Source of the DNA: a virus
Virus record (IMG/VR): IMGVR_UViG_3300020123_000028
Location: 1 to 39,542 of that record
Strand: one strand, 5' to 3'
DNA length: 39,542 bases
The position numbers were made by a program, and so were the translations under genes. A model generated the notes under the pieces. The model was not told where the DNA came from. It saw only the letters and a list, made by a program, of their open reading frames with translations, and did no database searches. This document shows positions 1,493-38,504 of this stretch, piece by piece (the stretch's first letter is position 1; each line of letters opens with the position of its first letter).

Positions 1493-2392
1493 CTATTCTC
1501 CCCACCCCGCCGTCTTATGCAGCTCGGCATAAAGTTCGGCGATGGGCTTGAGTGCTGCCAGAATCGGTTGCTTGCGATTCGGTCCAAGAAGCTTGAGAAA
1601 CTCAATCCCGCGTTCGTTGTCTTGCGATCCCAATTCTTCCAGCTTGTCCGCGAGATCGTTCGCCATGTCCATAACCTCATCGCACTTTTGCGATTCCTCG
1701 AATGTCGGCGAAACAGCGGCCCATCCTTTCGGGGATTTGGTTTTCTTTGCCTTCCCATCTCCGCGGGGACGACCAGCGCCGCCGGCACGTTTCGGCTTGG
1801 GCGCGATCTTCTCTACCTGCACCTTGAATTCCTTGACGGTCAGTGGAAGCACTTTGTCGCCCTCCTGATGTTCGGCGATCTCGACGAGCTGCTTGAGCTT
1901 TTCCGGGTCCGGTACGTGGCTGATTTCCCGGTAGTGCTTGAAGGTCAAGTGACGGCTGCGGAGATGATCAGGAATGGCGCGGGAAACCTCCTCGTAGACT
2001 TTGAGGGTGCTGAGTTTGCGGCCGGTTGAGTTGATAGCGTGCTCGTAGGCGTCGTTGCCGTACAGAGAGCGTGCCTGGATGATCAGATCGCCGATGAAAA
2101 ACCCAACCCGGTCTTTCTGGGCCACCGTGGTATCAAGGATCGGGAGGAACTCCGGCAGGGGCGTATCCTTGGCTAGCTTGAGCCCGCAGCCACTCTTTGT
2201 CATCTGCACGTACTGCTGCATGATGCCACCGATAGGCTTCTTACTCTCCTTGATGACCGTCAGTTTGCCTTCCTCAGACTTTTTCTCGGCCGTCTTCTTG
2301 GTCGCCGATGCTTTCTTTTCGGCCTTCATTTTCGGCTTTTTCGTTTTGGGAGCCGGGGGTTGAACTTCGGGTTCGATTTCGAGATCTTCCAT
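1493..2392 (-). CDS. Lys-rich DNA-partition-like phage protein
   Basis: This protein has 299 residues. Residues about 1-50 are a low-complexity Lys/Ala/Glu/Pro tail. The central part (FFIGDLIIQARSLYG, then SRHLTFKHYREISHVPDPEK and LTVKEFKVQVEKI) resembles a family of plasmid and phage proteins with a ParB-like helical organisation, where a 'GD-x-L' helix is followed by a 'LSWSHH' segment and a DNA-binding helix pair. Function is not proven; DNA binding linked to replication or partition is the best guess. A second basic Gly/Lys linker sits near residues 205-225. ATG 2392 is used because the frame further upstream has only a TTG at 2431, which sits on a perfect palindrome. The stop is TAG; readthrough would add only nine residues. 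Confidence 0.55.
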   Translation of the reverse strand: MEDLEIEPEVQPPAPKTKKPKMKAEKKASATKKTAEKKSEEGKLTVIKESKKPIGGIMQQYVQMTKSGCGLKLAKDTPLPEFLPILDTTVAQKDRVGFFIGDLIIQARSLYGNDAYEHAINSTGRKLSTLKVYEEVSRAIPDHLRSRHLTFKHYREISHVPDPEKLKQLVEIAEHQEGDKVLPLTVKEFKVQVEKIAPKPKRAGGAGRPRGDGKAKKTKSPKGWAAVSPTFEESQKCDEVMDMANDLADKLEELGSQDNERGIEFLKLLGPNRKQPILAALKPIAELYAELHKTAGWGE

Positions 2393-2415
2393 GGTTCTTT
2401 GGTTCTGAGGTTTTC

Positions 2416-2431
2416 TTGTATCCGGATACAA
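2416..2431. promoter_or_regulatory. Perfect 16-bp palindrome, operator-like
   Basis: TTGTATCCGGATACAA is a perfect inverted repeat between the stop of the XRE-like gene (2444) and the ATG at 2392. It shares the TATCC/GGATA core with the ATATCC-N-GGATAT palindromes at 4668 and 27030. Its position next to a small helix-turn-helix gene suggests an operator. Binding is inference. Confidence 0.45.
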
Positions 2432-2443
2432 TCACGGAATTCG

Positions 2444-2677
2444 TTATGAAAATATGGCGTCGTTTAGCTCCCTCTGCTGTTTGCGGTTCGCGTGCTTGTG
2501 GCACCACCGAATCATCCGCAATGCCCCTTCTGCCGATGGGTGAGTCGCGCCCGACATCCACGTGTGAACATGCGTGTGGTACATGCCGCAGTCCTCGGAT
2601 AGCTGTGGAAGACGATGCTGCCTCCAAATCTCTTGGAGAATCACACGGACTTTTGACCATCGCCTGGGCTCAAGCAT
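2444..2677 (-). CDS. Small XRE-like helix-turn-helix regulator
   Basis: A 77-residue basic protein. The segment from about residue 10 to 55 fits the Cro/CI fold: a first helix (VRVILQEIWRQH), then RLPQLSEDCGM as helix 2, YHTHVHTWMSG as a recognition helix, and a following helix (SAEGALRMIRWCHK). The match is by pattern only. The ATG at 2677 lies two bases after the TAA of the upstream frame, and a perfect palindrome lies immediately downstream at 2416-2431. This would be the best candidate for a phage regulator in the window. No divergent partner gene or integrase accompanies it. Confidence 0.5.
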   Translation of the reverse strand: MLEPRRWSKVRVILQEIWRQHRLPQLSEDCGMYHTHVHTWMSGATHPSAEGALRMIRWCHKHANRKQQRELNDAIFS

Positions 2678-2679
2678 GA

Positions 2680-2978
2680 TTATGGCTTTTTTGATGAAAT
2701 TTCATACTCGTAATGATCTCGGATCGCATTGGGCCCTAATACTTCAAGACCATATTTCACACAATCAGACATACTGTCCCAAGAATATATTTTGAAAAAT
2801 CTGTTTGCGTATCTGATATCGGCTCCCCACGCGGCACAATCCCATTGTGGATGACGATATGCCCCTCCTGAATCCAAAAGTCCTCCGGATATATTACGAT
2901 CGGGAATTTCAGGAATTCGCGCATGGCTTGCTGGAGTTTTTCAGCAAGCTTTATCCGTGTTTTCCCAATACGCCTCAT
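2680..2978 (-). pseudogene. Small phage gene split by a -1 frameshift at a GGGG run
   Basis: Frame A (2757-2978, ATG at 2978, 73 aa, TGA) and frame B (stop TAA at 2680) read as one protein if translation shifts -1, or if one G is added, at the GGGG run (+ strand cccc at 2862-2865). The joined product is about 99 residues: a basic N-terminal helix, FPIVIYPEDFWIQEG, then AYRHPQWDCAAWGADIRY and FFKIYSWDSMSDCVKYGLEV. Frame B alone has only a TTG near the overlap or a late ATG at 2775 (30 aa), and frame A's tail after the run is unlike a folded domain. The start overlaps the upstream stop by ATGA. Explanations are a real mutation, an assembly indel in a homopolymer, or programmed frameshifting; I cannot separate them. 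Confidence 0.5.
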
Positions 2979-3304
2979 AGCGGCAAAGAGTTATATTTTC
3001 CACCGAAACGCCCAAGGGGAAAAGGATGCTTGTTCGCTCGGCACTCCTTTTCGAATTCAAGCCAGCCGTAGCTATTTGCCTCCCAATCAGTTCCGAAACA
3101 TACCTTGCGATATGCGCCAACAGTTTCCGCCGCGCCGTCGATGGTGACTTTGAGTTTTCCAAATGGAACGCATTCAAATGCTTCGCGTTGCTCAGTTTGA
3201 GTCAATCTCCCTTCGAATTTCCCATAAATGCTTCCGGTGCGATTCAGTAGGAAGATTGCAAGCGCTCCTACTATTTCAAGAGATTTGAGAGATTCTGGAT
3301 TCAT
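2975..3304 (-). CDS. Hypothetical protein with a hydrophobic N-terminal segment
   Basis: A protein of 109 residues. Residues 7-18 (KSLEIVGALAIFLL) form a short hydrophobic stretch that could be a membrane anchor or a buried helix; the rest is soluble and mixed. No family is recognised. ATG 3304 is preferred over an upstream start at 3325 because it carries the CCACCA-ATG context shared with many other starts in this genome. The stop overlaps the next gene (ATGA), and the upstream helicase gene ends about 40 bp earlier, so it is probably cotranscribed with the replication genes. Confidence 0.5.
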   Translation of the reverse strand: MNPESLKSLEIVGALAIFLLNRTGSIYGKFEGRLTQTEQREAFECVPFGKLKVTIDGAAETVGAYRKVCFGTDWEANSYGWLEFEKECRANKHPFPLGRFGGKYNSLPL

Positions 3305-3345: not shown

Positions 3346-4665
3346 TTATTTTTCGGTCTCGTAAAATGTCATCTTCGGCATGTCGAAATAAAGCGTCTCA
3401 GAGCCAAGCCCCGATCCTCGGCCTTTTCCGCTCTTCAGGTAAACGCGCTGACGGAATAAGCCGCCTGTTCTGCCGTCGCGAAGCGTGCGCGGATCTTGAT
3501 CGCTCCAGACAATCACCGAATTGTCGGTGTCTTTGATGATCTGGTCACACCATGCAATTTTCGTTTCAGGCTCGGTGAAATCGTTTCCCGATCCCGGCAG
3601 ATGCGCGAGCACGATAAGCGCAACGCGGAATTCACGGGCGATCTCACGTAGCTGCATGGAGTTCTCCGCGTACATCTCCACGATTTTGCCTCGCCCGCGG
3701 ACCTGCTGGAACACGTCCAGATAGACAATCTTCACGCCATATTTCGCCACTTCTTTTCGCACAACGCTGCGGAGTCGTTCGATGTCGAAACGAATCGGCT
3801 TCGGAATTCGCAGATGAGTTTCCAGCAATGGGTCAAATGCCTCACGCGCCTTTTTGATCTTCGCCTCATCGAATCGATCAATTTTCCCAAACTCATAATC
3901 CGAGAATTGAATACCGGCCTGGCGACACACTAATCTCGCGTAGAAGTCGTTCACATCGGTGTCAAGCTGCACATAAAGCACTGGGATGCCTATTCTGACC
4001 TGATGACATACGATCTGCTCACAGAGTGCTGTCTTGCCGCATCCTGGGCGCCCTGCGATAGCCATGTATCGGCCAGCTTTGATCTTGAGGAGCGCATCGA
4101 CAGCCTTGATGCCGGTCGGGATTCCGATGCTATCGCCTCCGACACAAGCCATGAGATGCATATCCATGGCGAGCTTGGCTTCTTTTATGTGGTCATTTGA
4201 TTTCTGAATGTCGCCTATCTGAGATACCTCTTCGCGCAGCTCGGCCAGTATTCCAGAGCAGTTGTCCTGTTCATTATAGGCCCGCCGTTGTGCATCTGAT
4301 CCAATTCGGATGATCTCCCTCAGCGTGTGCTTCTCACGCAGTATGTTGAGGTAGTACGGCGCGTTTGCCGCCGTTGGCATCACATCCCGAAGTCCTACGA
4401 TCAGCCCGGCCCCTCCGACCGATTCCAGCATGCTTCGATCTCGTAACATGTTCACGACCGACAACGGCTCCAGCGGATCGCCTTCAAGCCACAGTTCCAT
4501 CATGGTTTCGTAGATCGTTCGCCGATGATAGAAAAACGCAGGCATGCATTTCCTGACTAGCAAATCTCCTACTTGATCCGGGGCCAGGAAGAATGAGGAG
4601 AGAACGCCATCCTCTGCGTCTGATGATGATGGGAGACTCTGATGCTCTTGGAGTGGGTGTGACAT
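3346..4665 (-). CDS. dnaB: DnaB-type replicative helicase
   Basis: At 439 residues the length matches DnaB helicases. Residues about 10-125 are the DnaB N-terminal helical domain (EDGVLSSFFLAPDQVGDLLV, FYHRRTIYETMMEL). Residues from about 175 form the RecA-like motor, with Walker A GRPGCGKT at 205-212 and Walker B VKIVYLDV ending in D317. DnaB hexamers unwind the replication fork ahead of the polymerase. The phage encodes its own helicase but I see no primase, polymerase or obvious loader, so it probably uses host enzymes and the initiator-like protein at 7084-7896. The family's usual Q-rich motif 3 is represented by VALIVLAHLPG. A palindrome (4668-4682) lies immediately upstream of the ATG. 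Confidence 0.9.
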   Translation of the reverse strand: MSHPLQEHQSLPSSSDAEDGVLSSFFLAPDQVGDLLVRKCMPAFFYHRRTIYETMMELWLEGDPLEPLSVVNMLRDRSMLESVGGAGLIVGLRDVMPTAANAPYYLNILREKHTLREIIRIGSDAQRRAYNEQDNCSGILAELREEVSQIGDIQKSNDHIKEAKLAMDMHLMACVGGDSIGIPTGIKAVDALLKIKAGRYMAIAGRPGCGKTALCEQIVCHQVRIGIPVLYVQLDTDVNDFYARLVCRQAGIQFSDYEFGKIDRFDEAKIKKAREAFDPLLETHLRIPKPIRFDIERLRSVVRKEVAKYGVKIVYLDVFQQVRGRGKIVEMYAENSMQLREIAREFRVALIVLAHLPGSGNDFTEPETKIAWCDQIIKDTDNSVIVWSDQDPRTLRDGRTGGLFRQRVYLKSGKGRGSGLGSETLYFDMPKMTFYETEK

Positions 4666-6728: not shown

Positions 6729-7087
6729 TGCGCGGGGCGGATATCGGTGAATCCGTAGTTTAAGATGTGGCCGGATCGAAACTCAATCTGCACCTCTTGG
6801 CCCTCACCCACGTTGATAAATTGCATCAGCGAAATGTTCACAGTGCCAATACGGCCCTCCGTGCTACATTCGGCCATGTACTCCGCGGGATGAACATTGA
6901 CGTGGCTTCCAACAAACTTCCCGTTGCTGTCATAATCGTTCACTGACTCATACCATTCGGGAATGCAATGCTTTCGCAGCACCTTTCCGGCTAGCCAATG
7001 CGGAGTTGCTGTCGCGTAATCGACAATCAACCCGCCGGCGATTATCATGGATAGACCTAGGAATGCCATCAGGACTCGTTCTTTCAT
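6725..7087 (-). CDS. Membrane-anchored hypothetical protein
   Basis: A protein of 120 residues. Residues 4-24 (VLMAFLGLSMIIAGGLIVDYA) form one strong transmembrane or signal segment after a short positive start (MKER). The remainder is predicted to be outside the cytoplasm, with beta-like stretches. The function is unknown; early-expressed single-span phage proteins often act on the host envelope or in exclusion. The start is the clearest case of the AAAACCA-ATG context and also overlaps the upstream stop. Confidence 0.6.
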   Translation of the reverse strand: MKERVLMAFLGLSMIIAGGLIVDYATATPHWLAGKVLRKHCIPEWYESVNDYDSNGKFVGSHVNVHPAEYMAECSTEGRIGTVNISLMQFINVGEGQEVQIEFRSGHILNYGFTDIRPAQ

Positions 7088-7896
7088 TGGTTTTGCTTCT
7101 GTTGCCTGCGTCTATACTCATCCCATTCGCTGTTCGTCATCTGACCTCCGGGGCCAGATCCGCGGAAAGGTTGTCCTGCGGGGATTGATTGGTCGCCAGG
7201 ATGGCCCGGGATCGCTGGATTTGCCCCGTGTAGCCCGTTCTGACCGTTCGGGCGGCCGGAGAGAGCTAAAATGGATTGGTGAACCTTCTGAGAGGGGAAG
7301 TGTCGAGCCAATTGCCAGGATATGACGACTGACTTCCATTTCTTGATTTTCTTCCGCTTCACAGTCCACTCGTTGTTCTCCCAGACATTGAAGATGTATT
7401 CAGCATCAGTGGCGAGAAGTCCTCTTTGCAGACAGAATGTAGTGACTTGTTGCAGAGTCGCCCTTGCCTCGCTCTCTACATTCCCTGACGGTTCCTGATG
7501 GTTACCTGATGGTTTGGGTGCAGAATCTGCGGGGGTAAGGTGCAGAATCTGCGGGGTCTCCCGTAATATCTGCGGGGGTGCAGAATCTGCGGGGGTGCAT
7601 TTCATGGCCTTCCTTGTGTCTGTCTCAATCTGCAATTTCGCTACGTTGATGTGATACAGATTGCAGCTCCGATAGCCCTCATTGGCGTCGATAACCAGTT
7701 CGCCGGAATCGACGCATTTCCGCAATGAGGCCTGAACCGCCCGCTCGGACAGCATCGCCTTTTCAGCTATGGTCTTAACGCTTGGGAACGCCCTTCCATT
7801 GTCGTCTGAATTGTCCGCGATCGCCAGCATCACAAGACGGGCTCCGTGCTCCATCTTCGATCCATGGAAAACTAGATTCATTACCTGGATGCTCAT
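7084..7896 (-). CDS. Replication initiator-like winged-helix protein
   Basis: This protein has 270 residues. Residues about 1-85 form a winged HTH of the type found in phage O-like and replisome-organiser proteins (HGARLVMLAIADNSDDNGRAF, then TIAEKAMLSERAVQASLRKC and GYRSCNLYHIN). Residues about 100-130 are a Pro-rich linker whose DNA consists of four iterons (7519-7596). A second domain follows (VTTFCLQRGLLATDAEYIFNVW, WKSVVISWQLARHF), then a Gly/Pro-rich tail. The domain order and the iterons in the linker parallel lambda O, which binds iterons inside its own gene and recruits DnaB. The helicase gene lies downstream in the same operon. The start is in an ATGA overlap with the HNH gene. Confidence 0.75.
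   Translation of the reverse strand: MSIQVMNLVFHGSKMEHGARLVMLAIADNSDDNGRAFPSVKTIAEKAMLSERAVQASLRKCVDSGELVIDANEGYRSCNLYHINVAKLQIETDTRKAMKCTPADSAPPQILRETPQILHLTPADSAPKPSGNHQEPSGNVESEARATLQQVTTFCLQRGLLATDAEYIFNVWENNEWTVKRKKIKKWKSVVISWQLARHFPSQKVHQSILALSGRPNGQNGLHGANPAIPGHPGDQSIPAGQPFRGSGPGGQMTNSEWDEYRRRQQKQNQ
7519..7596. repeat. Four iterons inside the initiator gene; likely origin
   Basis: The 18-mer TGCAGAATCTGCGGGGGT occurs exactly at 7519-7536 and 7579-7596, nearly exactly at 7541-7557 (one G fewer), and in degenerate form at 7564-7579. Each exact unit contains the palindrome GCAGA-A-TCTGC. A second short tandem, CCTGATGGTT-like, lies directly beside it (about 7486-7516). Iterons within the initiator's own linker are the classic layout of lambdoid origins. 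Confidence 0.7.
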
Positions 7897-11192: not shown

Positions 11193-12881
11193 TTATTCAG
11201 GGATGAGTTTCGGGATAAGCCAGAGAATCCGGCGAAGCTGTTCGTCATTGTAGGCGGTTAGGGGAGCTTTCGAATTGATGACGACCTCGGGTAGTTGATG
11301 CTTCTTCGCGATGCTATTCAGAGCAGTCACGAAGCTGAGGGCGTCATTATCTGGGATGCGATCGGTGACCATCTGCATCAGCACGCTATGCGGCTGTCCG
11401 AATCCCAAATCCACCTTCGCTGCCTGGACTGCTTTCTCGAAACATGAGTTCTCGTCTCCAGCGTTCGCCATGTAATGATTGGTCATCATCTGTTCCAGAT
11501 TCAGAAGATGCTCCGGCAGGAGGTTCCCGAGTGGCTTCCCGTGGACCTTCTCCGATTGTGGGAGATAGATCGGTGCTTTCCTCCATTCAATCGCGGCTGG
11601 CGAGGGATCGGACTTCGCCGCCGCGTTATTCTGGCCTACCCCTGACGCTTGCATCTCCGTGGATTGGACAGAAGAAAGCGACTCCGTATGCGGGGCATTT
11701 ACAGCTTTCGATGATGATTCACCTCCTTCCTTGGTTTTGCGTTCTTCGAGAAAAGCTTTGGCATGCACGAGTGCAGCTATAAGCGCGTGGTCCTCCTGAG
11801 TCGTTGGATTGGTGACAGCTCGAGACTTGTCGAAAAGCTCCATCAGCTTCTCGGCGCGATGCAGCTTGGGCTCAACGAATAACACTCGGAGCGTGCGCCC
11901 AAGCAACGGGCCGTTTGACTTTCCGATGTGGCATTTCAGGGATTGCCATTGAGGATGGCTAATTGCTTCCGCCACTACTTTCCCGGTTACATCGATAACT
12001 TCTGTATGCTTGCGGTCCTCGGAATCCACGAATGATTTTGCTGTCTCCCTGACATCATCCATTTCCGTGAGTCGGTCGCGGATAATGCAGAGCCTCTCCA
12101 TTGCCGACTTATCACCCGATGCATAAGCCGATGCATAAGCCGATGCTTCGCGCTGTTCCGCCTCGCGAAGTTGATCTAACGTCATTCCGAGATAGTTCGG
12201 AGCCGCTGATTTCACGGGCTCTTCCGCCGGCAGATCTTGCAATTCCTCCACGCTTGCAATGCCGGCAATGAGCCCAGGCCACACGAGACGCACACCCTCT
12301 GTTACGACACGGGCCGATAGCATCTGGCGCGGATATGCTTCCCAGTTGTGCTTCAGCGTTTGCTTATCTTTCGCCAATGAGATCCCCTTTCGCCACGCTT
12401 CCTCAGCAGTCCAAATCACGGTGTCCTCGTAATACATGGATAGATCCGCTATCTTATCCGAAAGTAATGCTGCCTCCCTTAGATCGCCGGGCGGATCGAT
12501 TACTTGCCTACGACGCAATTTATATCGCTCGATTGCCCGCTTTTTTCCAGCCTCGTCACATTGCGAACGGTGTCGGAAAAACGTGGCGCCTACCTCCAAA
12601 TCAGTTCGTGTGTGCCAAATGATAATGCCTTCACGCTCGAACTCACCTTGCATCGCATCGGCGCGCATTGCCGGCTTGCCTTCAATGATGTGGTAACGTC
12701 GCAAGGCGAGGAGCGGATTGATGCCCTCAGCCTGACAGAGAAGCATGAGCGTCACGATAGCCGATGAATTGGAGATCCCGAAAAGACCGCTCTTCGCAAT
12801 CCGCTCCGCGAACGTCTCCATTTGCGTGAATTGCTCTGGCGTGCAAGCGAGTGATTGAGATTGGGTGATTAGTTCAGACAT
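11193..12881 (-). CDS. recT: RecT-family single-strand annealing protein with a long C-terminal extension
   Basis: The protein has 562 residues. Residues about 15-215 carry the RecT/Bet-like core as found in phages: IVTLMLLCQAEGINPLLALRR, IEGKPAMRADAMQGEFE, then a helical stretch ending in NWEAYPRQMLSARVVTEGVR. RecT proteins anneal complementary single strands for recombination-dependent replication. Here no exonuclease partner (RecE or lambda Exo) is recognised. The C-terminal 300 residues are unusual for a RecT (typically about 270-330 aa) and include a YASAYASGDK repeat encoded by a 12-bp tandem (GATGCATAAGCC, about 12119-12145) and two helical regions. The start overlaps the stop of the small membrane protein at 12869. 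Confidence 0.75.
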   Translation of the reverse strand: MSELITQSQSLACTPEQFTQMETFAERIAKSGLFGISNSSAIVTLMLLCQAEGINPLLALRRYHIIEGKPAMRADAMQGEFEREGIIIWHTRTDLEVGATFFRHRSQCDEAGKKRAIERYKLRRRQVIDPPGDLREAALLSDKIADLSMYYEDTVIWTAEEAWRKGISLAKDKQTLKHNWEAYPRQMLSARVVTEGVRLVWPGLIAGIASVEELQDLPAEEPVKSAAPNYLGMTLDQLREAEQREASAYASAYASGDKSAMERLCIIRDRLTEMDDVRETAKSFVDSEDRKHTEVIDVTGKVVAEAISHPQWQSLKCHIGKSNGPLLGRTLRVLFVEPKLHRAEKLMELFDKSRAVTNPTTQEDHALIAALVHAKAFLEERKTKEGGESSSKAVNAPHTESLSSVQSTEMQASGVGQNNAAAKSDPSPAAIEWRKAPIYLPQSEKVHGKPLGNLLPEHLLNLEQMMTNHYMANAGDENSCFEKAVQAAKVDLGFGQPHSVLMQMVTDRIPDNDALSFVTALNSIAKKHQLPEVVINSKAPLTAYNDEQLRRILWLIPKLIPE

Positions 12882-13003
12882 GAGATGTAATAGGAGAAAT
12901 AGCCGAGTAGAATTCCTGCGACTAAGTTAATGATGCACTTGAATAACAATGCCTGATCATCGGATATGGGTGAATCAAGCATTGTTTTTATGAGCTTGAT
13001 CAC
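12869..13003 (-). CDS. Small membrane protein with GTG start, 44 aa
   Basis: GTG at 13003 overlaps the TGA of the upstream gene (GTGA). The product begins (M)IKLIKTMLDSPISDD and has one transmembrane helix, IINLVAGILLGYFSYYI. A shorter ATG start 21 bases later is also possible. It ends in a TAA just inside the RecT-like gene. Unknown role. Confidence 0.5.
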   Translation of the reverse strand: MIKLIKTMLDSPISDDQALLFKCIINLVAGILLGYFSYYISCLN

Positions 13004-13809
13004 GAAAACCTCCGTTGTGTTGTTTCGAAAATCCGCAGTCCCGGCACTTGCGGCGTGACATCCTCGGGGAATCCGAAGCGATCGCGGTTGAGACGGTCAA
13101 GGATAGAGGACCGGATAGCCTCCAGTTTCACAAGCTCAGGGTATTGTCCGAAAAGCTTGATGAGTGACTTTCGCTGCTCAAACTCATTGGCCCCGATAAT
13201 CTCGAAATCCAACTTGGTGCGGACGCTGACGCCTTGCGGCTTATCTTCGGTAATCGCGAGAGTTGATGGAGTGGACAGCGCGGCTTCCTCGGCCTGCACT
13301 TCGAGTGCGAAGAGTGTGTCCGACAATTCCTCAGCTTTGGTCGCATCGCCGGCCTGTGCAGCTTTCTCAGCCTCGGCAGCAAGTCGGGCCTGCTCTTTCT
13401 CGATCCGCAGCCTTTCCTCTTCGATCTTGCGCGCCTCTTCCGCGGCCTGCCGTTCGCGCTCCTTCCTGGCCTTCTCGATCCCCAACTCATACGCCGTGGC
13501 CAGCTTCGCAAGCTGAGCCTTCAGGGTTTCAACGGGAGCGATGAATTCTGCCGCCTTGGCATCAAGATCCTTGCCGAGCTTGATCAGGGGCGCCTTGACC
13601 TCTTTCCGAGCCTTCTCGACCTCTTTCTCCATTCCATTGAGTGCCCGCATCGCATCCACTACCTCTTGATAAGTCCGCGGTCCGTTGATCTTGGCAAGCC
13701 GAGCAAGGGGCTCGCCAACCATCAGGATCTCCTCCCGATGCAGCCGCGCCGCCGATGAGATGGTGATCTGAGCCGATGGCTCTAGTCCAGTGAGTGCAAG
13801 AGTGGTCAT
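13000..13809 (-). CDS. Coiled-coil phage recombination-associated protein
   Basis: A protein of 269 residues. Residues about 55-165 are a long Lys/Glu/Ala coiled coil (KARKERERQAAEEARKIEEE and on). The flanking N- and C-terminal parts are folded (FEIIGANEFEQRKSLIKLFG near 200-220). Long coiled-coil proteins of this composition commonly precede recT in phage recombination operons, and this one resembles DUF1351-type proteins. It is possibly an SMC-like accessory to recombination. Start in an ATGA overlap with the repeat-protein gene. Confidence 0.55.
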   Translation of the reverse strand: MTTLALTGLEPSAQITISSAARLHREEILMVGEPLARLAKINGPRTYQEVVDAMRALNGMEKEVEKARKEVKAPLIKLGKDLDAKAAEFIAPVETLKAQLAKLATAYELGIEKARKERERQAAEEARKIEEERLRIEKEQARLAAEAEKAAQAGDATKAEELSDTLFALEVQAEEAALSTPSTLAITEDKPQGVSVRTKLDFEIIGANEFEQRKSLIKLFGQYPELVKLEAIRSSILDRLNRDRFGFPEDVTPQVPGLRIFETTQRRFS

Positions 13810-14324
13810 TGCAGTAGCTCCAGTGCGTATTGGATGGCCTTTTTATGCTCAACGGCGGAGGCGGAGGCGGAGGCGGCGGCGGAGGCGGCGTAGGCGGAGG
13901 CGGAGGCGGCGGCGGCGGCGGAGGCGGAGGCGGAGGCGGAGGCGGAGGCGGAGGCGGAGGCGGAGGCGGAGGCGGAGGCGGCGGCGGAGGCGGCGGAGGC
14001 GGAGGCGGAGGCGGAGGCGGCGGAGGCGGCGTAGGCGGCGGAGGCGGAGGCGGAGGCGGAGGCGGCGGAGGCGGCGTAGGCGGAGGCGGAGGCGGCGGAG
14101 GCGGCGGCGGAGGCGTATTGCTTAGCCCGATCCGCACACGCTCGCGCCCATGCGACCCGATCAGCGCGCGAAAGCAATCGGCTCAGTAGCCATCGGCAAT
14201 CCGATCTCGATAGTGATAGTAGCCGATCCTCAGTCAGCTCGGTTGCTTCGGGTAATGCCTTCTGGAGATCTTCATCTTCCCAGCACGGCCCGAGTACCCT
14301 GATTTGCTCGTATGTGATTTTCAT
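13806..14324 (-). CDS. Ala/Ser repeat protein
   Basis: The protein has 172 residues. Residues 1-65 form a normal small domain (ITYEQIRVLGPCWEDEDLQK, then LTEDRLLSLSRSDCRWLLSR). Residues about 70-157 are almost only Ala and Ser with occasional Tyr (ASASAS, AYAAS). A short charged end follows (VEHKKAIQYALELL). The repeat would form a very long Ala-rich helix, and similar low-complexity tails occur on phage proteins with this kind of N-terminal domain. Its role is not known. ATG 14324 is fixed by an ATGA overlap. Because the DNA is a near-pure trinucleotide/hexanucleotide repeat, length variation or assembly collapse is likely. Confidence 0.65.
   Translation of the reverse strand: MKITYEQIRVLGPCWEDEDLQKALPEATELTEDRLLSLSRSDCRWLLSRLLSRADRVAWARACADRAKQYASAAASAASASAYAASAASASASASAAYAASAASASASASAASAAASASASASASASASASASASAAAAASASAYAASAAASASASAVEHKKAIQYALELLQ
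13853..14115. repeat. GGAGGC/GGC microsatellite-like tract
   Basis: About 263 bp composed almost entirely of GCGGAG and GCG units on the + strand (GCC and TCC codons on the coding strand), broken by a few gta (Tyr codons). Every frame on both strands stays open across it, giving artefactual poly-Arg, poly-Gly and poly-Pro frames. It encodes the Ala/Ser tail of the gene on the minus strand. Confidence 0.9.
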
Positions 14325-32971: not shown

Positions 32972-34789
32972 TTAATGCCTTCCGTTGAGCAACGTTTTCT
33001 TTCCGTTGACTTTCTTTGTCGGCTTTTTATCCGTATCGGAGTCTGCCTCTTCGGGTGCGTTAGCACCATCATCCGCTGTATCTTCTGCGGCTTGAGGTTG
33101 CTTCACGCTCTCAACGGTTAAAGTCGTAGATAGGTCTAACTCTTCGAGAAGCATCTTGTCCTCGGCGCGCTGGAAACAAATCTTCTCGAAGTCCTTACCC
33201 AACTCGGCACATTCCGCCGTATGGCTGGAAAATCCGTTCGCGATTCGAAGCGCAGCCGCTGTGACTTCCTTGATTTCATCAACGCCCTCCCAGCGTCGAG
33301 CCTGGAAGTGCGGACGGTTGAATTTCTTAAACTTGTCCTGAGTGAATGGTAGCGGGATCGCACCCACAATGAGCGCCATTTCAAGGAAATCCTCAAAAAT
33401 AGGACGCTCAGCCATGTCGATGTCGTCCTGCTGCATCAGCTTCCAATCGCCAGTAGTGGCAAGTCGATCTAGGCGACCTGCGGAGAAATTAATGCTCTCA
33501 TAATCGTTACCGATGACAGCATAACTAGCACCCGGATTAGATGCGCAGAATGACCGCAACATGGCCTTTCGAAACTCCGGAAGGTTGGCATTCGGAAAGT
33601 TAGGGTCGAAGGTCTGCACCTCGATTCCGTAAGGCAATCCCTCGATTGACCCCGGCTCAAGCTTGCGAGCCTGCAAGCCTCTGGGATCTGGCGGCGGAAC
33701 TTGCAATCCACCTTCCGGCACGAGATTTGATGTAAACCATCCCATCTTACATGCAGCGGCCCGGCTGGCGATCACATGAGCCTCTTCGGTTTTGTCTAGC
33801 TGGCGAACCTTTGGGATGGCCGACACACCCCACGGCGCCGGACGAGTCGAATCGTTGTCGTCGAGCGGTCCGTAATGGATTATGTCCTCTGCCGGCACAC
33901 GATCGTGAAAAGTTCCTTGCCCGAAGTTGAAAGCACCGGGGATCGTGAATTGCCAATCCCCCGGCTGGCGCTTGATGAAATGGTAAGCAACGGGCTTCGT
34001 GATTCCGAAATCATCACGCTGATACTCGATGCCCATACGCACTTCGTTTCCATTGGCGAGGCGTGGCACGTTATACCAATAATCGCACCACTCGCTATTC
34101 ACCATGCGCAGCGAATAACCGAATTTATTCACACGAGGATCTTTGATGCGGTGGTAAAAAATATCTCCATCACGGCATGCGCTGATGAGCCTCAGTCGTC
34201 GAGATGCCGCGTAATTCACCCGCTGCCGAACATCACTGTATTCCTTTCGCTGCCATTCTTTCCACGCACTCTCGATCATCAGGTTGGCGAAGAGATCCGG
34301 GGCGCCGACCTTAACCATCGCCTTACGGGTCAGAATATCCTCTTCGCTGGCCCTTTCAAGGCGATCAGCCAGATGATAGGCGCAATAGCGGTGGAATGGC
34401 TTTTCCGCGAATTCTGCTGCCCATCTACGAATCTCATTGATCTTCCGCTCGTGCTGAATAAGCGCCCATTTCTCATCCTGCGAGTGCACAACACGGTCCT
34501 CTGTCTCCTTTATCTCCATCGTTAGCATGATGCCCTTGTCACCAAAAACATTGCTCCAGAGCATCCGGCGATAGACCTGAAAATATGGATTGGTTCTGAA
34601 TAGATCCCGCATCCGACTCCGCAGAAGAAAGATGTTCTGCCAAACCGCCGAATCGGTGGAGAGAGTGCCTTCTCCGATCCCCCAATCGGAATTTGCGCCT
34701 CCGATACTGATTACTCCACGGTAATCCCTGACATTTGATTCGATCTTATCGGCAACGGGTGCCGCTTTGACTGACTTTTTCTTGCCCAT
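32972..34789 (-). CDS. Lambda-type portal protein
   Basis: A protein of 605 residues. The sequence follows the lambda-portal family: MRDLFRTNPYFQVYRRMLWS near the N-terminus, IESAWKEWQRK, GDIFYHRIKD, YEYQRDDFG-like segment, IIHYGPLDDNDSTRPAPWG, then SFCASNPGASYAVIGNDYES and SAGRLDR, a characteristic portal stretch. Twelve copies form the DNA channel and terminase docking ring. The C-terminal ~50 residues are an acidic and then Lys-rich tail. The start forms TAAATG with the gpW-like gene's stop. Confidence 0.85.
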   Translation of the reverse strand: MGKKKSVKAAPVADKIESNVRDYRGVISIGGANSDWGIGEGTLSTDSAVWQNIFLLRSRMRDLFRTNPYFQVYRRMLWSNVFGDKGIMLTMEIKETEDRVVHSQDEKWALIQHERKINEIRRWAAEFAEKPFHRYCAYHLADRLERASEEDILTRKAMVKVGAPDLFANLMIESAWKEWQRKEYSDVRQRVNYAASRRLRLISACRDGDIFYHRIKDPRVNKFGYSLRMVNSEWCDYWYNVPRLANGNEVRMGIEYQRDDFGITKPVAYHFIKRQPGDWQFTIPGAFNFGQGTFHDRVPAEDIIHYGPLDDNDSTRPAPWGVSAIPKVRQLDKTEEAHVIASRAAACKMGWFTSNLVPEGGLQVPPPDPRGLQARKLEPGSIEGLPYGIEVQTFDPNFPNANLPEFRKAMLRSFCASNPGASYAVIGNDYESINFSAGRLDRLATTGDWKLMQQDDIDMAERPIFEDFLEMALIVGAIPLPFTQDKFKKFNRPHFQARRWEGVDEIKEVTAAALRIANGFSSHTAECAELGKDFEKICFQRAEDKMLLEELDLSTTLTVESVKQPQAAEDTADDGANAPEEADSDTDKKPTKKVNGKKTLLNGRH

Positions 34790-35430: not shown

Positions 35431-37392
35431 TTACCACCATTTTCCGTTTGTAAACCCTCCACCCCCTAATGGTCCATTGCCATATTGCGGCAATGCTGTC
35501 TCTTCCTTGGGCTGCAATTGCGCTTCCATCTCGGCTTTTATCGCTTCATATGGCCAGTTTCGAAGTCGGAATGCCCCGAGATTTCCTACCTGGATATCAA
35601 GAGCTTCATTTCGCGCGTTGTTTTCATTCACATACTTCCGGATTTCCTCTCCCTTTTCAAATACGATTGAGACGGTCTCCGATGTCATCTGCTGAAAATA
35701 CTCCTCGGTGAATGACTTATTGAAATGCATGAAGCCTTCCTTCGTTGGATCTTCCAGCTTCAGCCTCTCGTAGATAAGATCCTTTGCGGCCCAAGTCCCA
35801 ATATGATGACCCTTGAGCTGTTTGGCGACTGTTCGGTATTTGGTATCAATGATTGGATGCCCATGTTTCCCTTCGCCCTTGGTCGCCCGAACCTTTCCAG
35901 TGACTCCAGGCTCCGGGTTGCGCACTAGATCACCCAAGAACCAGTAGACGAAGTCCGCGGCCCATCCTCCGTCGATCATGGCCATGGTTAGCGTCATCTC
36001 CGCTCCGGATTCATGCTGCCATTTTCGCGCTAGCTCGTGGCGAAGTGTTCGCCACACTTGAGCTTCCTTCGGATTTCCGTCGAGAACCACGTGGAGCATT
36101 CCCCAGCTCTCTTGATTCGGAGCGTGCGCCTTCCATTCCAACTCAAGACGGTTCGATTGCACATCGACATAGACGGTCAGGATGAGCGCCTTCATCGGCA
36201 CAATCAGCCCATAATCCTCACGCCGGTCATAGATAGCCTTCCATGGTGGTGGGGCCTCTGTCTGCCCGTCCGGATCGTCGCATTCTGCGAGAAAGGTGTT
36301 GATCCATACCCGCTTGGAGAATTGCGGGTCCATGCCTTTCTGAGCCCGGCGCGCGTCCATCACGAACTGATGCATCTTGTTCCGGTATCCCTTCTCGGCC
36401 GGTAGCACGGTGTTGAGTCCATTTAGCCAGTAGCTCCGGATGCCATCGAAAGATGCCGTCGGCCTCCACTCGGCTTCGAGAACTGAACGAATTCTCTGGC
36501 GGTCATTGTGCGAGGCGGCGCATTTCTCACAAAGCAGTACCGAGTTCCATGGCTTGTCTTTAACCTCATCGAATTGACTCCATTTCCAGAATTGTGCGTG
36601 CCCGCAAGAGCGACAGGGGACAAACCATTTCCGCTTATCTCCTAAATCAAACCAATATTGGATTCGGCTACGATAAATCTTCACTCCGTTGTGATCGATG
36701 TGCGCCTTTAGCGTCGGAGTTCCAGAGAGCATCTTAACAGCGTCCGGGAATCCCTCGCATCGCTTCATGCCGAGCAACACCGGGTCACCCTCCACGCCGA
36801 CAGACCCCGGCATTGCGTCGATCTCATCCATGTACACCATTCCAGCGCGAGGGCCGCGGAAGTTAGACGGCGAACGAGCTGCGATCATGTTGAGCGATCC
36901 GCCGGGGAACTTTTTGAAAGAGATCGTGTTTCCAGAGTCCGGACCTTTCGCTGGCACCACTCGCGATCTCACGGACGGCGTCGCCTCGATGAGTGACCTC
37001 TGAATCACGTCGCGGGAAAACTTATCGCGCGAATCCTCGATTGGGTAAGCCACAATGATATTCGTCGGTTCCTCAACGATCTTCTCGCCGATGATATTCA
37101 CGACGATCTCCGTCTTAGCCATTGCCGCCGCAAATAGCAATACGGTCATTTGCACATCCGGAGACACGGCCTCGATCATCGGCTCGACGCACCACGGCAT
37201 CCGACTCGCATCGTACTTCAAATCCCCATCCATCGACAACGGAGATGCACCCTGCGCGATCACTCGCTCTTCCTGAGCCCATTGATAAGGGTTGCGCTTT
37301 GCCTTTACCGGGAAGTATCGCCCGCGCTGCGAATAGTATGCCTCCTGGCAGCGTGCATGACAGTGAGCGCGGATGTCTAGGATTGTGCTCAC
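35431..37392 (-). CDS. Terminase large subunit (GpA family)
   Basis: A protein of 653 residues, a normal length for lambda GpA-like terminases. The motor follows GpA order: MPWCVEPMIEAVSPDVQMTV, the Walker A position AAAMAKTE (88-95), IIVAYPIEDSRDKFS, NFRGPRAGMVYMDEIDAMP (Walker B DE) and KMLSGTPT. A zinc-like pair CRSCG and CEKC sits near the middle, and the nuclease begins with LILTVYVDVQSNRLELEW. The Walker A glycine is replaced (AKT instead of GKT), which is unusual. GTG 37392 is chosen as start because it overlaps the methyltransferase stop (GTGA); the frame upstream of it lies inside that gene. Confidence 0.9.
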   Translation of the reverse strand: MSTILDIRAHCHARCQEAYYSQRGRYFPVKAKRNPYQWAQEERVIAQGASPLSMDGDLKYDASRMPWCVEPMIEAVSPDVQMTVLLFAAAMAKTEIVVNIIGEKIVEEPTNIIVAYPIEDSRDKFSRDVIQRSLIEATPSVRSRVVPAKGPDSGNTISFKKFPGGSLNMIAARSPSNFRGPRAGMVYMDEIDAMPGSVGVEGDPVLLGMKRCEGFPDAVKMLSGTPTLKAHIDHNGVKIYRSRIQYWFDLGDKRKWFVPCRSCGHAQFWKWSQFDEVKDKPWNSVLLCEKCAASHNDRQRIRSVLEAEWRPTASFDGIRSYWLNGLNTVLPAEKGYRNKMHQFVMDARRAQKGMDPQFSKRVWINTFLAECDDPDGQTEAPPPWKAIYDRREDYGLIVPMKALILTVYVDVQSNRLELEWKAHAPNQESWGMLHVVLDGNPKEAQVWRTLRHELARKWQHESGAEMTLTMAMIDGGWAADFVYWFLGDLVRNPEPGVTGKVRATKGEGKHGHPIIDTKYRTVAKQLKGHHIGTWAAKDLIYERLKLEDPTKEGFMHFNKSFTEEYFQQMTSETVSIVFEKGEEIRKYVNENNARNEALDIQVGNLGAFRLRNWPYEAIKAEMEAQLQPKEETALPQYGNGPLGGGGFTNGKWW

Positions 37393-38504
37393 AGTGTTGC
37401 GTCTACCATTTTCATCCGCTCTCCAATCCAACGAATCACCGGGACTGCAATGGAGTTTCCGAGCGCTTTATATCTCGGACCATCCGCCGTCTTCGAATCA
37501 ATCTTGGTCTTTCCGTCCGCGAATCCCTGAAGTCTCTCGCATTCCAATGGAGTTAAACGGCGCACTCCGTTTTTCATTACGCATTGCGTAGATTTTGAAT
37601 CCAAGCTTCCGGGGATCTCTCCATTCACAGGGTCCATGCGACCGTTGAAAGCTATGATGTTATCGCTGTCCTCTCGGTGCGAGCAATTCGCCTGTCCTCG
37701 AAGTGATCGCGCGATCAATGGTATTCCGCGCCCTGTTCCGTCTTCACTCGCGTCGAATCCTTCGGCCTTGAGCGAATGCGTGATCAGCGTTTCAGTCTCA
37801 TAATCAATTCGCCCCATCCCGCCTGCGTTAAGGCAATATGCCACATTGCCTGTGCTTGGAATCATGTGTCCGTTGGCGGCGTCTTGCACTCCGACACTTC
37901 GGCAAGTGCGCGCGCTAATTGTTTCGGTAATGTTTTCCCGCGCGCCTCTGCTCGGCGGAGGATTCCCGCACAAGCTTTCGCGCTCAAATAATACCGCTGC
38001 GGCACGTCGCCAGTCTCCAAGATATCCGACAACGAAGACGCGACGGCGCTGCTGTGGAACTCCGAAGTGCTGAGCGTCAAGAATCCGGTAGGCGAACCCA
38101 TACCCGAGTTTTGCCAACCCTGCAAGGAAGGTTCCAAACACCCTTCCTCCTTCAATTGACAGAATACCGGGGACGTTCTCCCATACCACCCAGCGGGGCC
38201 GATATCGGTCAGCAACGGCAAGATAGGTGAGGGTGAGGTTGCCACGCGGATCATCCAATCCCTTTCGTAGTCCGGCGACGCTGAAGGCCTGGCAAGGTGT
38301 TCCTCCGAAAAGAGCATCGATTGCGAATCCTGGCCATGTTTTGAACTGGAGCATGTCCCCGAGGTTCGGCGTTTCGGCATAATGATGGGCGAGGTATTTA
38401 CAGGGAAAGGATTCGATCTCCGAGAATGCTACAGGCTCAAATCCGATCGGGATGAGTGCTTCTGACACTGCTTCTATTCCGGAGCATACGGAGAGATACC
38501 TCAT
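37389..38504 (-). CDS. dcm: Orphan C5 cytosine DNA methyltransferase
   Basis: This 371-residue protein has the full C5-methyltransferase motif set: motif I YLSVCSGIEAVSEAL, motif IV FGGTPCQAFS with the catalytic Cys71, motif VI WENVPG, motif VIII QRRRVF, and motifs IX-X RLTPLECERLQGF and YKALGNSIAVPVIRWIGERM. The target-recognition region is ~200-310. No matching restriction enzyme is present, so it probably protects phage DNA from host restriction or marks packaging or regulatory sites. It sits between the small and large terminase genes, coupled by GTGA and ATGA overlaps, which is an unusual place. Confidence 0.9.
   Translation of the reverse strand: MRYLSVCSGIEAVSEALIPIGFEPVAFSEIESFPCKYLAHHYAETPNLGDMLQFKTWPGFAIDALFGGTPCQAFSVAGLRKGLDDPRGNLTLTYLAVADRYRPRWVVWENVPGILSIEGGRVFGTFLAGLAKLGYGFAYRILDAQHFGVPQQRRRVFVVGYLGDWRRAAAVLFERESLCGNPPPSRGARENITETISARTCRSVGVQDAANGHMIPSTGNVAYCLNAGGMGRIDYETETLITHSLKAEGFDASEDGTGRGIPLIARSLRGQANCSHREDSDNIIAFNGRMDPVNGEIPGSLDSKSTQCVMKNGVRRLTPLECERLQGFADGKTKIDSKTADGPRYKALGNSIAVPVIRWIGERMKMVDATL

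Follow-up and report, generated by a model that had tools for sequence, protein, structure and literature searches.

The viral DNA analysed here, the whole IMG/VR virus record IMGVR_UViG_3300020123_000028 with its 39,542 bases (the window), probably holds a replication origin in two parts, both lying within the gene for the initiator. One part, a set of four iterons, is of a known kind. The other is a second array of three short AACC(A/G)TCA elements (AACCRTCA), which is undescribed as far as the searched literature goes: no description of the array or its letters in phage origins was found, in a search covering mainly freely available papers. Comparison of sequences makes it very likely that the origin itself is located in the initiator gene, and gives good grounds for regarding the array as the opening (unwinding) element. 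That the array strand is captured by the initiator specifically is suggested by analogy with other origins, and we place this slightly below an even chance. The features concerned are the following, all on the minus strand.

3346..4665, minus: DnaB-like replicative helicase, 439 aa (PF03796, 9.7e-21; PF00772, 1e-13; PHROG 19, 2.7e-49)
7084..7896, minus: O-like replication initiator, 270 aa (PF13730 HTH_36, E=2.9e-9; PHROG 391, E=3.7e-20)
7579..7594, minus: iteron 1, CCCCGCAGATTCTGCA on the coding strand, furthest upstream in the gene; the plus strand at 7579-7596 is exactly TGCAGAATCTGCGGGGGT
7562..7577, minus: iteron 2, degenerate, CCCCGCAGATATTACG; 17 bp from iteron 1
7541..7556, minus: iteron 3; 21 bp from iteron 2, flanking C one shorter than in the full copies
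7519..7534, minus: iteron 4; 22 bp from iteron 3, adjoining the second array; the plus strand at 7519-7536 is exactly TGCAGAATCTGCGGGGGT
7507..7514, minus: array element 1, AACCATCA; its distance to the centre of iteron 4 is 10.5 bp
7496..7503, minus: array element 2, AACCATCA; +11 bp, read in frame as N-H-Q, against K/E-P-S in elements 1 and 3
7486..7493, minus: array element 3, AACCGTCA; +10 bp

Its gene content marks the window as a tailed phage whose packaging module is lambda-like. It encodes a RecT-like annealing protein (11193-12881), a C5 cytosine methylase (37389-38504), a GpA-type terminase (35431-37431) and a lambda-type portal (32972-34789). About 45 copies of the hexanucleotide GGCGGA (83% match) occupy 13854-14115; they sit in a G+C-rich island at 13.0-14.5 kb that reaches 65% G+C against about 52%, and an exonuclease-like gene at 13000-13809 adjoins them.

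The initiator falls among the O-like phage replication initiators by its profile matches: PHROG 391 is annotated as 'replication initiation O-like', and PHROG 1032 (1.7e-18) and PHROG 8540 (1.2e-17) match as well. It has no match to PF04492 (Phage_rep_O), its Pfam matches being HTH_36 and, weakly, DnaD_N only, whereas lambda O and P22 gp18 do match that family (5.7e-36 and 6.9e-38). Being outside PF04492 and inside HTH_36/PHROG 391, the protein is therefore O-like and not an O. Its AlphaFold model consists of a confident winged helix (residues 1-85), a linker of low confidence without predicted secondary structure (residues about 100-139, the part encoded by the repeats) and a helical C-terminal part (residues 140-212). 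A sequence search of solved structures gave no relevant match, and a fold search returned generic winged helices only, the nearest solved folds being MarR-like and TubR-like.

The iterons themselves are three copies of the 16-mer TGCAGAATCTGCGGGG and one degenerate copy. A sequence-only reading of this DNA had described four of them at 7519-7596, two exact, one lacking a G and one degenerate, and all four are present in that form. On the plus strand, iteron 3 (7541-7557) matches the full copy except for the one missing G, and iteron 2 (7562-7579) reads CGTAATATCTGCGGGGGT, with four mismatches and one palindrome arm gone. The reading frame of iteron 3 differs from that of iterons 1 and 4. Exact TGCAGAATCTGCGGGG occurs three times in the 39.5 kb of the window, each time in the iteron region; allowing up to three mismatches, there are five matches against 0.55 expected, and none of 100 shuffles reached five. 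Their placement within the linker codons of a winged-helix protein, likewise claimed beforehand, agrees with the AlphaFold model, which puts them in residues 100-139. Multiple dyad-symmetric iterons thus lie between the parts of the gene that code for the DNA-binding and C-terminal domains, and with a helicase gene downstream this bears out the lambda-O-like architecture that had been proposed.

The proposal had also set the helicase gene downstream in the same operon. That gene carries both DnaB domains and is on the same strand; it lies about 2.4 kb downstream with several small ORFs between, and is not directly adjacent. The DnaB-like helicase is the presumed cargo loaded by the origin complex. 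A further expectation, a minimum of cumulative GC skew at 7.5 kb, did not materialise: the skew falls across the whole window and is uninformative here, because all genes identified by homology are on one strand.

Relatives of the initiator were collected to see the repeats in other genes. A search with the single window protein found nothing, and alignment of the winged-helix (wHTH) domain was required. The 160 loci gathered in this way owe their selection to that alignment alone, so the repeats played no part in the choice; together with the window they were reduced to 120 nonredundant initiator genes. Independently of this collection, an exact scan of IMG/VR for TGCAGAATCTGCGGGG returned 29 stretches. 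In at least 12 of these, from contigs other than the window, an O-like winged-helix initiator carries the site in its linker, often with 3 to 9 related copies per gene, and the search for the same iteron in homologous genes that had been suggested therefore succeeds. Exact matches in non-initiator genes, such as a repeated virion-like ORF (L015, L020, L025 and L028), are isolated copies, apparently due to chance. The unit on the coding strand, CCCCGCA-N5-TGCA, is read in different frames (TPADSAP, PPQILHP), so that protein sequence alone is no explanation for it. Spacing, whose loss in homologues was to have counted against the iterons, is kept: lags of 17, 22 and 23 bp stand out in 79, 89 and 64 genes out of 106, where within-gene synonymous permutation gives 19.5, 18.7 and 11.6. 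The iteron core varies among phages (GCAGATTCTGC, GAACGACGTTC, GCCAATTTGGC and others).

Iteron half-sites covary with the protein. Residue E51, in the recognition helix, is the top column of all for association with the half-site: D51 accompanies GA-starting arms (11 of 11 genes), and E51 accompanies GC-starting arms almost throughout, counts that are uncorrected for phylogeny. Such covariation is expected if the recognition helix reads the iteron. The change E51D with GAAC-type arms is seen in L051, L074, L082, L085, L121 and L127, and R or F/Y at position 55 goes with other arms; the pattern at residues 51 and 55 is a possible recognition code of O-like initiators. One relative, L011 (IMGVR_UViG_3300002461_000338, 2028-3110), has about 80 extra linker residues between two iterons; this insert resembles a separate domain, and the iterons and the array are still there.

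Within the gene, the second array follows the iterons immediately on their 3' side, at 7486-7514 on the minus strand. Its three elements, in the order AACCATCA/AACCATCA/AACCGTCA, were separately detected by a tandem-repeat finder as an 11-bp repeat, and even the two-element pattern has no match elsewhere in the 39,542-base record. At least two elements 10-12 bp apart are present in 106 of the 120 initiator genes, against 16.1 after synonymous permutation, and at least three in 80, against 2.6 (maximum 7 in 200). Reading frame is not preserved: 99 of the 106 arrays span at least two frames, giving E/K-P-S, N-R/H-Q and I/R-T-I/V. When EPS tripeptides of the linker are defined from the protein (n=127), 95% are written GAACC(A/G)TCA, against 3.1% predicted from the codon usage in the rest of these genes. 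Mixed frames and near-fixed EPS codons together mean that the constraint acts on DNA.

The geometry of the array is also regular. Spacings across the family are mostly 11 and 12 bp, and where the last iteron is a palindrome and could be measured, its centre is mostly 10.5 or 11.5 bp away from the first element. In 77 of the 106 genes, the lowest predicted duplex stability within 300 bp coincides with the centre of the array; in the window this feature is weak, the array being only slightly richer in A+T than its flank (0.48 against 0.42) and not the 300-bp minimum. Short direct repeats conserved as DNA, such as a strand-capture DUE possesses, are what these genes contain.

To follow the array beyond the collected genes, IMG/VR was scanned with the three-element DNA pattern and no protein input, which yielded at least 79 loci. 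Among the 79 matches listed, 59 lie in genes that match the winged-helix profile (E below 1e-4); the remaining listed loci include several cut by a contig end and about eight simple repeats. Named phages with the array are Pseudomonas MD8, LESphi3 and Riah, Vibrio 1.236.O and Sphingopyxis VSN-002. Altered forms, AACCAGTCA and ATCCAGTCA, occur in Escherichia mEp044, Vibrio D59 and Morganella IME1369_02, and the exact array is absent from some relatives. The initiator gene of the actinobacterial Arthrobacter phage Arielagos (L322) carries AACCGTCA-AAT-AACCAACC-ACT-AACCACCC in 11-bp steps, which may be a weak form of the array. A DNA search with the origin stretch of one relative (L005) against named phages gave a single weak match.

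Genes downstream of array-bearing initiators vary, and include DnaB-like (L110), DnaC/IstB-like (L035) and DUF6475 (L043) types; the idea that the array is tied to one loader type is accordingly rejected. DUF6475 (PF20081, E 3.8e-38 and 5.9e-28) lies directly downstream of the initiator in L043 and L089, at the position expected of a helicase loader, and its product may be one. Bacterial chromosomes were scanned as well. Across 294 Burkholderiaceae genomes the exact triple was found at six loci, all six in initiator genes, and a control with the pattern written backwards matched once; in 299 genomes of a second genus the array pattern appeared once, in a tandem repeat without a winged helix. 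A host chromosomal motif as the identity of the array is thus unsupported, triples being near-absent outside initiator genes in both sets of genomes.

From this material we infer that the origin is active and melts, that one strand is captured, and which molecule does so, in the following form. The N-terminal winged helix of the initiator would bind the four iterons, probably as a dimer that contacts the GCAGA/TCTGC half-sites; the iterons near the array are spaced by about two helical turns. Binding in dimeric form has indirect support from the covariation of half-site and recognition helix. The array would offer one AACC(A/G)TCA per 11 bp or so, the first of them a step of that size away from the last iteron's centre. 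Iteron-bound initiator would bend and unwind the DNA, and the array, usually the least stable stretch nearby, would melt. One strand would then be held through its AACCRTCA repeats or the complementary TGAYGGTT repeats, most likely by the initiator, which could either extend its assembly on the iterons into the array or loop back to it. The phage DnaB-like helicase would then be taken up by the region thus freed. An array that stays invariant while the iterons change fits a role in strand recognition, and the array step of 11 bp, half the iteron step of 22-23 bp, suggests one register running through both. More broadly, O-like phage origins may commonly use AACC(A/G)TCA arrays to open and capture a strand. 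The initiator would read the array as single-stranded DNA at intervals of 11 nt, in continuation of the 22-bp iteron register, and proteobacterial phages would have retained the array while exchanging iteron specificity and helicase loader; this general form we offer tentatively, as nearly but not quite an even proposition.

The main rival is that a host factor reads the array. The array would then be a double-stranded site for an architectural, helicase-loading or priming protein, not the place of strand capture by the initiator. Constancy of the array while iterons, initiator C-termini and loaders change is what a conserved host factor would also produce, and a spacing of about one helical turn fits a double-stranded site; spacings of 10 to 13 bp, however, tolerate lost helical phase. 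The chromosome scans described above tell against this reading, host chromosomes being nearly free of exact triples outside initiator genes, as does the spread of the array over phages of alpha-, beta- and gammaproteobacteria, with the weak form in the Arthrobacter phage. We know of no host-factor site that could be named as fitting the array. Taken together, we consider a host-read site rather unlikely, though the most serious competitor of capture by the initiator.

Much less probable is that the iterons are operators for autorepression by the initiator, and no origin. Winged-helix proteins are often repressors, and the nearest solved folds of this one have been named above; the iterons, though, lie some 300-380 bp into the gene, 3' of the wHTH codons, in multiple copies at conserved distances beside an element of low stability, the arrangement of the lambda and P22 origins. 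An iteron-only origin in which the array is a linker motif of the protein (EPS repeats) without a DNA role is the least credible of all: a motif ITxxEPSxEPSxN is recognisable across the initiator family, yet the same elements are also read as KPS, NRQ/NHQ and ITI/TV, and the near-fixed codon choice within EPS goes against it too.

How lambda-type initiators hold the opened strand is a question that has stood since the 1980s, as far as we found. An element that is constant across about 100 divergent initiator genes, and written through different frames of the linker, supplies a concrete sequence for work with purified protein. As a DNA pattern alone, the array serves as a signature that locates phage initiator genes together with their origins, both in viral contigs and in bacterial genomes, and gives few false matches; the covariation of half-site and residue 51 is a starting point for a recognition code of O-like initiators.

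Among known systems, the initiators of Pseudomonas phages MD8, LESphi3 and Riah, which are PHROG 391-like, share the HTH linker anatomy, related iterons and the AACCRTCA array with the window. GCAG half-sites are kept in this group while iteron cores vary, and the initiator is followed by a P-like or unannotated gene, where the window has a DnaB-like helicase. The MD8 paper covers the origin of lambda, and a text search of it found no mention of iterons. In layout, the window origin appears closest to P22 gene 18/gene 12, and by analogy it would work like that of lambda. P22 likewise has mid-gene iterons, with a rep_origin annotated inside gene 18, and a DnaB-like helicase gene downstream; it differs in its initiator (PF04492, not HTH_36), in iteron sequence and in gene 12 being directly adjacent, and the A-rich repeats just 3' of its iterons are ACAAAAGACAATA, not AACCRTCA. 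At ori-lambda, O dimers bind four dyad iterons of 18-19 bp in the O gene, and an A+T-rich region beside them opens on supercoiled DNA (PMC5043065, PMC7466680). Lambda iterons, of CCCTCAAAACGAGGG type with spacings of 20, 24 and 23, are unlike those of the window in both respects, the lambda DUE is A+T-rich without AACCRTCA, and lambda P loads the host DnaB, whereas the window phage has a DnaB-like helicase of its own. In lambda (L034), P22 (L324) and HK97 (L325) the place of the array, on the 3' side of the last iteron, is taken by an A-rich ACAAAAGA(CAATA) repeat.

For the holding of a strand, the parallels come from plasmid and chromosome-2 initiators. RctB, with ATCA repeats, and TrfA, with 13-mers, hold one DUE strand via short direct repeats, and the structure of RepE includes both kinds of DNA (PMC10316083, PMC4081077, PMC10797057). 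Vibrio cholerae ori2/RctB and RK2 oriV/TrfA differ from the window in having unrelated initiator families and intergenic origins. They are alike in placing initiator-bound double-stranded repeats beside a repeat-bearing DUE, and the (A/G)TCA end of the array element resembles the ATCA of ori2, a likeness of motif that may be chance.
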